Source: Synechococcus sp. M16CYN (GTDB taxonomy: Bacteria > Cyanobacteriota > Cyanobacteriia > PCC-6307 > Cyanobiaceae). From it: DNA of 64,000 nucleotides. The position numbers were made by a program, and so were the translations under genes. Location: contig NZ_AP029048.1 in the NCBI RefSeq assembly GCF_040371545.1, positions 1,426,001 to 1,490,000 on the forward strand, in the 5' to 3' direction. Numbering within the stretch: the first letter of the stretch is position 1; each line of letters begins with the position of its first letter. The notes under the pieces are model-generated. The model did no database searches. It worked only from the letters and a program-made list of their open reading frames with translations, and was not told the origin of the DNA. This document shows, piece by piece, positions 55,250 through 59,122 of the stretch.

Positions 55250-55951
55250 TTGGCCGCGGCACAGGCGACCCGTGAAAATGCCCTAAGGGTGGGGGTTGAT
55301 CAGTTTTGGGCTCCCTTGGCTATGTTGGCAACCCAAAACATTGCGCTGCCACTGCAGTTTCGTGAGCGTCTCGTTCTTCACCCTGAGCGACTGCCTCATT
55401 GTGGTTCAGTACTTCTGGCACCAACACATCGTGCCCGTTGGGATGCATTGATGCTAACCATGGCCGCTGGTCGACGTGTAACAGGTCGCGATTGTCGCTT
55501 CATGGTCACCACCACAGAAATGCGAGGGTTGCAGGGATGGTTCCTTCAACGTTTGGGCTGCTTCCCCATAAATCAGGGACATCCATCGATGACAACACTA
55601 AGGTTGGCTATTGACTTACTTGCCAACAGGCAACAGCTCGTGGTATTCCCAGAGGGACGAATTCAACGCATTGATCGGCCGATTCAGGTGCGGGCCGGGC
55701 TCGTGCGCCTAGCCCAGCTTGCACAAAGCCGCGGCGTTCAAGTACCTGTGATTCCAGTCGGCTTAGGCTATAGCCAAGCGTTTCCACAGTCGGCCGGTCG
55801 AGCTGCTGTGTGTTTCGGGAAGGCTCTTAAAGTGCCAACAACCACGGGTAAGGAAGCAGCGCAGCAGTTCAACCACAAACTCACAAGAGCGATGCATGTG
55901 GCTGAACGATCGGCTCGTAAGGCTGTCGGGCGGCCGCTTCAAACCTTTTGA
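55250..55951 (+). CDS. PlsC-like 1-acylglycerol-phosphate acyltransferase
   Basis: A 233-residue membrane-associated acyltransferase. The HX4D motif is THRARWDALM; block III is VFPEGRIQRIDRPIQVRAGL with the EGR substrate-binding arginine; block IV is VPVIPVGLGYS. This fits AGPAT enzymes that make phosphatidate, the substrate of CdsA encoded elsewhere in the window. TTG start at 55250 is used because no ATG is in frame nearby. Divergent from pdxJ. Confidence 0.85.
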   Translation: MAAAQATRENALRVGVDQFWAPLAMLATQNIALPLQFRERLVLHPERLPHCGSVLLAPTHRARWDALMLTMAAGRRVTGRDCRFMVTTTEMRGLQGWFLQRLGCFPINQGHPSMTTLRLAIDLLANRQQLVVFPEGRIQRIDRPIQVRAGLVRLAQLAQSRGVQVPVIPVGLGYSQAFPQSAGRAAVCFGKALKVPTTTGKEAAQQFNHKLTRAMHVAERSARKAVGRPLQTF

Positions 55952-56217
55952 GTTCAGTCAAAATGCCTTGGATTTGGCCCCATGGGTCGTCACTTCTTCA
56001 ACTAACAGCCTTCGCTTTAGTAGCCACTTCCACCCTTATCCATTCGAGTTTAATAGTTTTCCAGCAACGGGATCCCAGCTCAAGCGCGACAGTGGCTTTA
56101 GTCTGTCGGCCGTTAAAATTGCCGTCTCCTGCGGCGGTGCAGCGGCCTATAGGGGAGACTTCGTTCGCGCCCACAGAAACCACAATAAAAACCAGGCGAG
56201 GCATTCAGAACAGCTAG
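55948..56217 (+). CDS. small exported protein of unknown function
   Basis: Up to 89 residues. A TTG at 55948 overlaps the acyltransferase stop (TTGA), and an ATG at 55963 gives an 84-residue alternative beginning MPWIWPHGSSLLQL. Residues ~10-32 of the longer form are hydrophobic (LLQLTAFALVATSTLIHSSL), like a signal peptide or anchor, followed by a polar, proline-rich remainder. No family known. Opposite-strand and other-frame readings of the same DNA are also open, so the gene is uncertain. Confidence 0.4.
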   Translation: MSSVKMPWIWPHGSSLLQLTAFALVATSTLIHSSLIVFQQRDPSSSATVALVCRPLKLPSPAAVQRPIGETSFAPTETTIKTRRGIQNS

Positions 56218-56556
56218 TCTTAATTTTACGAAGATCTCGGCACGGCTTTGATGAATTAGTTCTGCATAGACACAAATAATCCCAAAATAGAAAGCCCCTA
56301 GGCTGGGTTACTTATTGAGTCTGATCTGTAGCTAGCTGCATTGTTTGTCCTAGAGGTAGAATCAACCAAAAACTGCCGTTTTTGCTTTGTATCAAAGTTG
56401 GCTAAGGCTGGTGACTTGACCTAAAAATCACAGAGTTCGCAGGGGAGTTTATCAAAGTCTCCTAAAATTCAGCTCCGTAAGACTGAATTCAAGGGTGTTT
56501 TGCGACCAGGCAGCTGGGTTCATCTGTCAGCATCGTTTGATCGTAATCTATTCCCC
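56218..56556. other. intergenic region
   Basis: 339 bases before bolA. Mixed composition; no reading frame of interest, no tRNA. The promoter of bolA-grxD must lie here, but I cannot point to it with confidence. Confidence 0.4.
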
Positions 56557-56790
56557 ATGATACAGCTATCCGCGGTCGAGTCTGCGATTCAACGTGTCAT
56601 CCCTGATGCCAGGGTGACTGTTGAAGATCTCACCGGTGGTGGTGATCATCTTCAAGTGAGTGTGGTCTCTTCAGCCTTTAGTGGATTGTCGCGGATTCGC
56701 CAACACCAAATAGTCTATGGAGCACTGCAGCAGGAGCTGGCCAGCGAGGCAATTCATGCGTTGGCACTCAACACTTCTATCCCTTCCTGA
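56557..56790 (+). CDS. BolA-family protein
   Basis: A 77-residue BolA protein. Landmarks: [20 protein letters not shown] at the N-terminus, [12 protein letters not shown] with the conserved histidine, and [17 protein letters not shown] with the helix-turn-helix-like RxxRHQ segment. I use the ATG at 56557, the family start; an upstream in-frame start at 56500 adds 19 alien residues. BolA proteins partner with monothiol glutaredoxins in iron-sulphur handling; grxD follows immediately. Confidence 0.88.
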
Positions 56791-56814
56791 TCTTCACGAC
56801 ACCTTCCCTTAATT

Positions 56815-57138
56815 ATGGACACTTCTACTAAATCTCGTATCGAAAGCCTGATCGCTTCGAGCCCAATCTTTGTATTTATGAAGGGCTCCAAATTGATGCC
56901 GCAATGCGGCTTCTCGAATAATGTTGTACAGATTCTCCACTCGATCGGCGTCGCATTCGAGACCTTTGATGTTTTGTCGGACGTGGAGATACGACAAGGA
57001 ATCAAAGAATTCTCTAATTGGCCCACGATTCCCCAAGTTTATGTAAAAGGGGAGTTCATGGGTGGATCTGATATCTTAATTGAGATGTACAACGAGGGTG
57101 AGCTTCGCGAAAAGTTAGAAATTGCGCTTGCTAGTTAG
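56815..57138 (+). CDS. grxD: monothiol glutaredoxin, Grx4 type
   Basis: A 107-residue CGFS glutaredoxin that carries a [2Fe-2S] cluster with glutathione. The active-site motif is MPQCGFSNNVVQIL at about residue 29; the glutathione-binding WPTIPQVYVKGEFMGGSDIL is complete. Separated from bolA by 24 nt, so the two are probably co-transcribed, consistent with a BolA-Grx complex acting in iron sensing or cluster delivery. Confidence 0.95.
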   Translation: MDTSTKSRIESLIASSPIFVFMKGSKLMPQCGFSNNVVQILHSIGVAFETFDVLSDVEIRQGIKEFSNWPTIPQVYVKGEFMGGSDILIEMYNEGELREKLEIALAS

Positions 57139-57158
57139 GTCGTCATGTTTGGCAACCG

Positions 57159-57422
57159 TTATGGGTGTTTCGCGTAAAGAGCGCTCACGCTCCCGTCCGG
57201 CCCGATAAAGCTCGATGGATCCAAAATCCAGCGATCAATCAATTGCTCTAGCCGGTGCTGTTGACGTAAATCGAGAGAGCCGGATCTGCGCAAAGCGTGG
57301 AGGTATCCGTCCGCGTAGAGACGCAGTTCAGAGGCAGTGTGATAACGCGTGGTGAGCTCCTGGCACGCATCACAAATTGATTGAAAATGACGGATGGCCT
57401 GTGGGTCATCGAGTGACGTCAT
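57159..57422 (-). CDS. DUF6761 family protein
   Basis: An 87-residue soluble protein conserved in cyanobacteria. The stretch CDACQELTTRYHTASELRLY followed by ADGYLHALRRSGSLDLRQQHRLEQLIDRWI and DPSSFIGPDG is characteristic of the family. It is mostly helical. No function assigned. Convergent with grxD (20 nt between stops) and divergent from the response regulator gene. Confidence 0.8.
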   Translation of the reverse strand: MTSLDDPQAIRHFQSICDACQELTTRYHTASELRLYADGYLHALRRSGSLDLRQQHRLEQLIDRWILDPSSFIGPDGSVSALYAKHP

Positions 57423-57496
57423 TGGTTGATACAGCAGCTCTCGCTACCAGCGCACGATGAAATTGGTATTAGCCTAGTCGTGCCTAGATCGATCCA

Positions 57497-58264
57497 GTGA
57501 CCTCAACGCCGCAAGACCTGGTTACCGAGTCGGGTACTCCTTCCGACCAGGCACTCACCATGCCGGTATCCAGAAGTGGTCTTGAGCCCTCGCGGGTTTT
57601 GGTCGTCGAGCCACATCCCACGCTGCGCACAGTCCTTGTACAACGCCTTCGACAAGATGGTCATTTGACTGCAGCGGTGGGCCGAGCCGCAGAAGCCCTC
57701 GATGTCTGTCAGGAGCAATCTCCCGATCTTTTGGTGAGCGCTGAGATTCTGGAACAAGGTTCTGCCCTGCGCTTGGCTGGACAACTTCGTTGCCCTGTGA
57801 TTGTTCTTACTGCAAGAAGTGGTGCAGATCCGGTCATTGGCTTACTCGACGATGGTGCCGACGATGTGCTGCGCAAACCCTTTGGTCTCGAAGAGCTTGC
57901 GGCTCGCTGCAGGACTCTTTTAAAGCGAGGACGTAGTGGTTTACAGGAACGGGTCACAGTGGGGCCCCTTGAAGTCCATCTGTTAATGCGGCAAGTTACT
58001 CTCCGCGATAAGCCGGTGGAATTGAGTCCGCGTGAGTTTGCTCTGCTCTGCGCCTTACTCATGCCTCCAGGACTGGTGCGTAGCCGCCAAGAATTATTGC
58101 GAATGGCCTGGCCCCCGTTCAGTGGCGGTCCCCGCTCTGTAGATACGCAAGTGCTGACTCTTCGTCGTAAGTTGGAACAAGCCGGCCTTGGTGAAGGTGG
58201 CGGAGTTACTACTGTTCGTCAACGCGGCTATCGCTTCAGTCTGGACAACTTGCCGGCAACTTAA
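57497..58264 (+). CDS. OmpR-type response regulator with aspartate-less receiver
   Basis: A 255-residue protein with a receiver domain (about residues 33-145) and an OmpR/PhoB winged helix (about 155-250, ending TVRQRGYRFSLD). The expected phospho-acceptor position after PDL reads PDLLVSAEILEQ, with no aspartate there, and the acidic pair near the start reads VVEPHP instead of VxDD. The threonine in VLTARSG and lysine in LRKPFG are kept. So it probably binds DNA without classical phosphorylation. GTG start at 57497. No kinase gene is adjacent. Confidence 0.82.
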   Translation: MTSTPQDLVTESGTPSDQALTMPVSRSGLEPSRVLVVEPHPTLRTVLVQRLRQDGHLTAAVGRAAEALDVCQEQSPDLLVSAEILEQGSALRLAGQLRCPVIVLTARSGADPVIGLLDDGADDVLRKPFGLEELAARCRTLLKRGRSGLQERVTVGPLEVHLLMRQVTLRDKPVELSPREFALLCALLMPPGLVRSRQELLRMAWPPFSGGPRSVDTQVLTLRRKLEQAGLGEGGGVTTVRQRGYRFSLDNLPAT

Positions 58265-58273
58265 GACCTAATA

Positions 58274-58798
58274 TTAAGTAATAAGTCCTTCCGCAATCGC
58301 CACACCTGTAGCAAGCTCTCCCACGATCATTAGGATCGCCAATACTGCAAGTACCTGATACGTCCATGGAGGTGTGAGCCGGCCGATCCCTTTGGTTGAA
58401 ACCAAGGTACGCTCACGCAACACGTCCAAGAAGCGGTCAAATCGAGCAATGCGTTGAGGTAGTAACTGGTGGCGACAACCAGTCGCCTTCAGATAGTACA
58501 CAGTTCCCCCTTGGCTTGTGCCAACTGGGACAAGGGCACGAACATCACTCCAGGCCATGAACCAACTCCGACGGAACAGCCAACTAATCCAAGGTGGGTA
58601 ACGTACCCGTAGACCGTCGGCATCGGTTTCCACCTTCTCACTGAGCAATCCCAGAATCAATAGAAAGCCAAGGAGTAAAATACCGATCGTCAATGGTCTG
58701 AGCTCCTGAGGAGCGAAGAAAGGTAATGGCAAAACTAATGCGACGTACAGGCTGAGCAAAGTGAAGAAGATCAGAGGAGAGAGGCCGAAACGTTCCAT
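58274..58798 (-). CDS. conserved cyanobacterial membrane protein
   Basis: About 174 residues. Two hydrophobic segments lie near the N-terminus (LIFFTLLSLYVALVLPLPFF and LTIGILLLGFLLILGLL), a soluble PH-like strand-rich part follows (ADGLRVRYPPWISWLF, WSDVRALVPV), and another membrane segment ends the protein (YQVLAVLAILMIVGELATG). I use the ATG at 58798 (MERFGLSPL); a TTG at 58837 is possible. Function unknown. Convergent with the response regulator, 9 nt between stops. Confidence 0.68.
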   Translation of the reverse strand: MERFGLSPLIFFTLLSLYVALVLPLPFFAPQELRPLTIGILLLGFLLILGLLSEKVETDADGLRVRYPPWISWLFRRSWFMAWSDVRALVPVGTSQGGTVYYLKATGCRHQLLPQRIARFDRFLDVLRERTLVSTKGIGRLTPPWTYQVLAVLAILMIVGELATGVAIAEGLIT

Positions 58799-59122
58799 AC
58801 CGTTCAGTGATAAGTGATAGCCTGATGTTCTAGCCAACAGTTTGATTTCAGTTGTACAAACGCGTAGGCGTCGCCGGATATTTTAGTTTTCTCATCTTTC
58901 CAAAAACCAACGGGTTGCATCAGGCCCGGCATGGGTTTTTGACTATCGGCAATATGTACCTAAGAGGCCATATTGTTTCTAACTTCTCCAAGACTACATT
59001 ATAAAATACCTGCATTCAGCACCGCTACCCCATTTTAGGGTACTCACATTAGCAGATGCAGACAAAGTGTGAGGCTTTGACATCACTGTAATTCAGAGTC
59101 TAGGAGCTTACTAAACAGCCAA
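58799..59122. other. intergenic region
   Basis: 324 bases between two minus-strand genes. No reading frame, repeat or RNA gene of note; moderately AT-rich around 58970-59050. Confidence 0.4.

Follow-up and report, generated by a model that had tools for sequence, protein, structure and literature searches.

How is a response regulator controlled when its receiver domain has no aspartate to phosphorylate? This question is raised by the gene P0001 in a 64,000-nucleotide stretch of Synechococcus sp. M16CYN DNA, which is called the window here. A sequence-only reading of the locus had assigned the protein to the aspartate-less receiver group, and had proposed that it is regulated by a ligand, a partner or dimerisation rather than by a histidine kinase. 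The features of the gene, in window coordinates, are the following.

57497..58264, forward strand: the P0001 gene, encoding an orphan OmpR/PhoB-type regulator of 255 aa with a GTG start (ORF, Pfam, orthologs)
57593..57931, forward strand: receiver (pseudo-receiver) domain, residues 33-145 (Pfam Response_reg at 34-137; AlphaFold model)
57608..57613, forward strand: codons 38-39, Glu-Pro replacing the two metal-binding acids (sequence, alignments)
57740..57742, forward strand: codon 82, Ala replacing the acceptor Asp (sequence, alignments, AlphaFold model)
57809..57811, forward strand: codon 105, the conserved switch Thr (sequence, 111-row alignment)
57866..57868, forward strand: codon 124, Val replacing the K-3 Tyr of the Y-T switch (alignments, ortholog residues)
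57875..57877, forward strand: codon 127, the conserved Lys (sequence, 111-row alignment)
58010..58237, forward strand: winged-helix DNA-binding domain, residues 172-247 (Pfam Trans_reg_C; residues 155-248 highly conserved)

The protein matched Response_reg (PF00072) with 48.9 bits against a Pfam cut-off of 30.2 and, C-terminal of the receiver, Trans_reg_C (PF00486) with 55.5 bits against a cut-off of 26.2. A PF00486 winged helix after a receiver marks it as an OmpR/PhoB response regulator, and the PDB fold matches agree. In an AlphaFold model built from a 77-sequence alignment (mean pLDDT 81.6; block means of 88-97 for residues 31-140), residues 1-28 were unstructured. The receiver alone matched PDB structures with TM-scores of 0.83-0.85 by target length, and structures of RitR, CosR and HP1043 were among the fold matches.

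Pro76-Leu91 aligned without a gap to canonical and family sequences, and this alignment put Ala82 at the acceptor position. The acceptor aspartate of receivers lies at the end of strand beta3, and Ala82 was the final residue of beta3 in the model. Thus neither the alignment nor the model placed an aspartate there, which confirms the loss of the acceptor read from the letters. We also tried Ser81 as the acceptor and rejected it; it needs a gap that the gap-free alignment does not support. The sequence-only reading had further noted one missing acidic pocket residue (VVEPHP) and an intact switch Thr and Lys. Both observations held in the alignment, where the acidic pair was Glu38-Pro39, and Thr105 and Lys127 were present. 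That reading had overlooked a further loss: in the Y-T switch the aromatic K-3 residue acts together with the Thr, and this Tyr is also gone from P0001, which has Val124.

With a PF00072 match, and with Ala82 and Pro39 in 111/111 rows of an alignment of picocyanobacterial orthologs, P0001 is an aspartate-less receiver, or pseudo-receiver, by the definition in section 5 of PMC12632262. It is probably a DNA-binding regulator independent of aspartyl phosphorylation: judged by its sequence, the receiver has lost not only the Asp but also the acid at the second metal-binding position and the Tyr of the Y-T pair. Since metal site, acceptor and switch Tyr are all absent, control by a kinase is very unlikely, as had been proposed. 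Four HisKA matches were found in the genome, none of them in the window; the nearest of these HisKA-type kinases lies about 112 kb away, in line with the earlier remark that no kinase is nearby. Six receiver matches were found in this small genome, five above the Pfam cut-off and one weak, and P0001 should not be counted among its two-component systems. The sixth match (L006, G000:C1:1125446-1125616) is partial, scores 24.3 bits, under the cut-off, and is possibly another degenerate receiver.

Ala82 is not a private mutation of P0001, as seen across its orthologs. Besides P0001 and L007, the copy of it in its own genome, the 111-row alignment drew on 109 further loci, whose record titles include Synechococcus, Prochlorococcus and Cyanobium; some strains may be present twice, one row (L034) is cut short near residue 240, where its contig stretch stops, and another (L035) contains an X. 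Ala82, Pro39, His40, Glu83, Thr105, Val124 and Lys127 were invariant (111/111), so that all picocyanobacterial orthologs examined lack the Asp. Position 38 was Glu in 105 rows, Asp in five and X in one; position 81 was Ser in 109 and Cys in two; and the K+2 residue was Phe (F129) throughout (111/111). On the alpha4-beta5-alpha5 face, the charged positions were mostly kept (Asp122 in 108, Asp123 in 110, Glu133 in 111, Arg137 in 111 and Arg144 in 110 of the 111 rows), and positions 118, 119, 126, 132 and 140 set this group apart from the remaining family. Residues 20-30 were variable between orthologs.

Strong orthologs with open frames were found in 30 of the 36 genomes of the window's family; the six genomes without one (G010, G012, G015, G018, G030 and G035) are each 53-85% complete. 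We compared ten neighbourhood proteins by median identity to the window proteins. The regulator ranked highest at 81.0%, followed by glutaredoxin (79.4), DUF6761 (67.5), crtISO-like (67.3), trmFO (66.5), pdxJ (65.2), bolA (58.2), plsC (58.0), RecC-like (37.6) and a 187-aa membrane protein (34.0%), using 57 loci that hold all seven compared genes, with the last five named, outside the seven, scored where found. This top rank places the gene under strong purifying selection and, with Ala82 invariant as well, shows that it is not decaying. Among 13 family members, median pairwise identity was 82.3% for receiver residues 33-145 vs 94.7% for residues 155-248, and the DNA-binding domain is intact, as had been read. 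A scan of viral contigs by short exact peptide patterns gave no relative of P0001 that would point to a phage origin.

Beyond the window's family, P0001 had best matches of 35-41% identity in 16 genomes. A profile of 21 rows found good orthologs in 112 of 126 class genomes (at least 294 bits, vs at most 238 bits for paralogs). The other 14 genomes gave no match (nine), paralog-level matches only (three), a partial match (G043) or a doubtful one (G106); the 112-row tree left out L271, which is truncated by the end of its contig, as well as L272, doubtful at 238 bits. One neighbour, which lies outside the proposed mechanism, served as an anchor of orthology.

57159..57422, reverse strand: divergent DUF6761 gene, a conserved neighbour (Pfam; synteny)

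DUF6761 stands beside the regulator in 79/80 near loci, and bolA and grx do so in 73/80, some of the contigs being short. At distant loci, a divergent DUF6761 gene lay within 1.4 kb in 8/14 regions, and bolA plus grx were present in 3/14. A 128-row tree, obtained by a short search and having long branches, split the 112 orthologs from 15 paralogs and one NblR-like row (L150, which scores under the NblR cut-off) with branch support 97. The window's family formed one clade in it (support 100); in the 112-row tree the branch of this family is very long, which makes its exact place there unsure. By synteny and tree, P0001 is a member of a cyanobacteria-wide family.

The phosphorylation site varies strongly across this family. 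A complete site (two acids, Asp, Ser/Thr and Lys) was found among the 112 orthologs only in family f13 (5/5), which includes genome G047. The second metal-binding position had no acid in 106/112. The acceptor residue was Asp in 82 orthologs, Ala in 15 (13 from the window's family and two from f11), Ser in nine, Glu in four and Asn in two. The four Glu acceptors are all non-picocyanobacterial and fit a phosphate-independent state. The assignment to the aspartate-less group therefore stands for picocyanobacteria and does not extend to the family at large, where most orthologs keep the Asp.

With the key columns left out of tree building, the minimum number of changes was seven for Asp/non-Asp, two for the second acid and one for the K-3 Tyr, the last falling in the window's family. 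We infer, with one outgroup lineage, that the metal site was lost first and the Asp afterwards and repeatedly. The ancestor would have been a phosphorylatable receiver, retained in f13. The second metal-binding acid would have gone first, then the Asp in several lineages, among them the ancestor of the examined Prochlorococcus, marine Synechococcus and Cyanobium proteins.

If phosphate does not set the output of such a regulator, the amount of protein made may do so, and the upstream region bears on this. Canonical NtcA-activated promoters carry GTAN8TAC centred near -41.5 and a TAN3T -10 box, with 22 nt between them at one class II site (PMC3898017). Two elements were predicted upstream of P0001.

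57434..57447, forward strand: degenerate NtcA-like site GCA-N8-TAC, GCAGCTCTCGCTAC (consensus match; predicted only)
57470..57475, forward strand: TAN3T-type -10 element TAGCCT, 22 nt past the TAC half-site (predicted only; spacing shared with relatives)

The window thus has the 22-nt spacing of a class II NtcA promoter and GCA-N8-TAC in place of its GTAN8TAC. When all spaced dyads were counted in 50 non-redundant regions that precede orthologs from outside the picocyanobacteria, GTAA-N6-CTAC turned up in 34, and no dyad exceeded eight in shuffles. GTAN8TAC, which this dyad contains, was present in 47/50 of these regions (mean 4.2 and maximum 9 over 200 shuffles), and in 74/77 when some genomes were counted twice; the three regions without it belong to L125, L132 and L303. 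Of these 47 regions, 42 have TAN3T exactly 22 nt further on and four have it at 23 nt; in the f13 region L120, GTAN8TAC was present and TAN3T was missing at the right distance. Upstream of paralogs, GTAN8TAC occurred in 2/16 regions and never with the TAN3T spacing (0/16). The shuffles permuted two-base blocks and keep dinucleotides only roughly.

Four genomes, with 73 Trans_reg_C matches between them, were compared for the full pattern: it stood upstream of the ortholog in 4/4 and of one other OmpR gene, the matches being assigned to genes by eye from coordinates. Genome-wide in these four genomes, the full pattern was no commoner than a reversed control. The other gene (L322, G127:C1:3187900-3189200) has GTAN8TAC-N22-TAN3T upstream in G127, and is presumably RpaA-like, a name given by sequence resemblance. 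RpaA is listed among NtcA-bound genes in Anabaena (PMC3898017).

Among picocyanobacterial intergenics, GTAN8TAC was found in 1/109, and with the TAN3T spacing in 0/109. TAC-N22-TAN3T was present in 38/109, including the window, with a left half that was always GCA or GCT; the remaining 71/109 lack it. In 43 non-redundant picocyanobacterial regions it occurred 12 times (300 shuffles: mean 1.1, maximum 5). A sigma-70 scan of 57000-58700 gave no promoter-like site (shuffle mean 1.1) and one terminator-like site (mean 1.4). Three freshwater-type relatives (L094, L098 and L101) share an upstream intergenic block, GGCATCGCCTGATAC, which reads GCA-N8-TAC and may be a regulatory element.

These observations suggest that, in the wider family, the amount of the P0001 orthologs is probably set by NtcA through a predicted class II promoter, which makes synthesis the likely control point there. 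The left half-site is changed in picocyanobacteria, and any control by NtcA has therefore probably weakened or been lost in them.

The reading we lean towards, with a little more confidence than doubt, is that P0001 is an aspartate-less pseudo-receiver protein that dimerises without phosphate and was ancestrally under NtcA-dependent dosage. Dimers would form through the alpha4-beta5-alpha5 face, the mode reported for ChxR and HP1043, and the output would depend on the amount of protein made. Across the wider family, this amount would be under the nitrogen regulator NtcA, which responds to 2-oxoglutarate and would act through the class II promoter. In picocyanobacteria the changed left half-site would have weakened or removed this input. 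The mostly kept charges of the face fit phosphate-free dimerisation as in ChxR, HP1043 and GlnR, and section 18 of PMC12632262 names such dimerisation and regulation through synthesis as mechanisms of pseudo-receiver proteins. The differing positions 118, 119, 126, 132 and 140 of the face speak against this reading. The same section reports that Phe at K+2 biases CheY toward inactive conformations, and F129 counts mildly against an active-state-biased receiver in P0001. The dosage argument is weakest in picocyanobacteria themselves (1/109 and 38/109, as above); the lack of genome-wide enrichment of the promoter pattern in the four genomes, and the exceptions L125, L132, L303 and L120, also count against it. 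Of the regulation first proposed for P0001, independence from a histidine kinase is thus upheld, and the evidence we gathered points to control of amount rather than to a ligand or a partner.

A wider history can be offered tentatively, and we think it less likely than not. A phylum-wide cyanobacterial orphan regulator would have turned stepwise from kinase-driven to dosage-driven, losing its metal site and then, several times, its Asp. NtcA would have taken over meanwhile, so that the regulator passed on the nitrogen status of the cell; it could be NrrA/Rre37, which regulates glycogen and carbon catabolism. The NtcA site would then have changed as well in Prochlorococcus and marine Synechococcus.

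A different possibility is that the pseudo-receiver is gated, with DNA binding switched either by a small molecule that occupies the altered pocket or by a protein docked to the alpha faces. This was the main proposal of the sequence-only reading; we consider it unlikely, though it is a serious alternative. The receiver fold is intact by the AlphaFold model and its PDB matches, the domain has stayed conserved (82.3% over 33-145) though the gene could have dropped it, and Glu83 and Pro39-His40 show no variation and are specific to this lineage. However, neither a partner nor a ligand was found, and conservation is lower in the receiver than in the DNA-binding domain.

Picocyanobacteria-specific cysteines could instead set the oligomeric state as a thiol redox switch, which we judge quite improbable. 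Cys71 and Cys185 were present in 111/111 rows, Cys138 in 108/111 and Cys99 in 101/111, and they are nearly absent from the remaining family. The conserved neighbourhood includes a gene for a monothiol glutaredoxin, and the oligomeric state of RpaA, RpaB and Rre1 reportedly responds to redox (PMC9321951). Yet the receiver cysteine usual in the remaining family (99/101 rows) is Ala, Ser or Gly here, and the glutaredoxin neighbourhood is also found around distant orthologs that lack the picocyanobacterial cysteines.

There is little chance that P0001 is still phosphorylated elsewhere, for example on Ser81, or by a Ser/Thr kinase. Thr105 and Lys127, the phosphoryl contacts of receivers, are kept, and position 81 is nearly always Ser (Cys in 2/111), but the second metal-binding acid and the Asp are both missing, Ser81 reaches the acceptor position only through the unsupported gap, and no HisKA kinase lies within 112 kb. 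That P0001 is a degenerating gene on its way to loss, as the vanished receiver residues and changed promoter site could be taken to mean, is barely credible against open frames in 30 strong orthologs, the top median identity of ten neighbourhood proteins (57 loci) and a DNA-binding domain at 94.7%.

Returning to phosphate-free dimerisation under dosage control, we compared P0001 with known regulators. An aspartate-less receiver on an OmpR/PhoB regulator is an already well-described kind of protein (ChxR, HP1043, NblR); 609 OmpR-type examples are given in PMC4395418, and the mechanisms of pseudo-receivers are reviewed in PMC12632262. ChxR, HP1043, CosR and RitR share with P0001 an orphan OmpR/PhoB architecture and an incomplete phosphorylation site, and phosphate-free activity is described for ChxR and HP1043 (PMC12632262 section 18; PMC3960148; PMC8345958). 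RitR is described as a cysteine redox sensor (PMC5965902). However, these four belong to another phylum and family, and unlike them, the P0001 family has a series from complete to missing sites among its orthologs together with an NtcA-type promoter. GlnR of actinomycetes is also an atypical OmpR/PhoB protein, regulates nitrogen genes and forms a dimer without phosphorylation (PMC12632262 section 18; PMC3087709). It differs in that section 18 describes its Asp as needed for the dimer, whereas P0001 has Ala.

NblR of Synechococcus elongatus is likewise a cyanobacterial OmpR-type regulator, described in PMC12632262 as not requiring phosphorylation, and it had been suggested for comparison. It turned out to be a separate paralog: P0001 scored 72.9 bits on NCBIfam NF045914 against a cut-off of 300, and G045, G053 and G058 each hold an above-cut-off NblR and a separate P0001 ortholog. 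An identity with Sll0396/Rre28, prompted by a single Cys65, was dropped as well; sll0396 is called an nblR ortholog in PMC2491639.

NrrA (Anabaena All4312), or Rre37 (Synechocystis Sll1330), is a nitrogen-induced OmpR-type regulator, and NtcA binds the nrrA promoter (PMC4295605, PMC3898017, PMC4390870). The length of 250 aa and the Cys at position 66 given for it in PMC4361706 Table 2 fit the P0001 family. An NtcA-type promoter was seen in 47/50 relatives within this family, and in the window only GCA-N8-TAC. The other cysteines of Rre37 (33 and 116) were not matched in the comparison. A second OmpR family (L313, L325 and L327) fits the length and Cys66 equally, and GTAN8TAC was not found in the stretches of it examined. 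Among the eight Trans_reg_C genes of G166, a possible Synechocystis relative, none had the Rre37 cysteine pattern. As compared by descriptions of All4312 and Sll1330, NrrA/Rre37 may be the named member of the P0001 family.

The on/off switching of pseudo-receivers is termed a mystery in the 2025 review (PMC12632262). The P0001 family is a natural series within one phylum, from a complete site to none, along which the promoter change can be traced in parallel and each step can be tested through receiver and promoter swaps. Titles and abstract openings of the literature searched, which covered few subscription journals, gave no description of this stepwise loss or of its NtcA link. Many orphan regulators are reported in Prochlorococcus and Synechococcus (PMC6365647). 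If the wider history above is right, Prochlorococcus and marine Synechococcus would be left with a highly conserved regulator that receives neither of the known inputs, in cells whose regulatory repertoire is among the smallest of any free-living ones.

Some further observations concern the locus and its copies. A contig filed as a Rubripirellula MAG (L040, JAAXJB010000076.1) carries a copy of the P0001 gene that is 87% identical; the copy is cyanobacterial, and the MAG is therefore probably contaminated. Downstream of P0001 lies the convergent gene of the 187-aa membrane protein (window 58274-58837), which had no Pfam match above the cut-off and was the least conserved neighbour compared (median 34.0%, 31 loci), next to the best conserved one. 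The order plsC, bolA, grx, DUF6761 (reversed) and regulator (window 55250-58837) is common to picocyanobacteria and some distant cyanobacteria. Grx4-BolA pairs are Fe-S partners. In the distant regions L159, L165 and L167, the three of 14 with bolA and grx, plsC is present in two.
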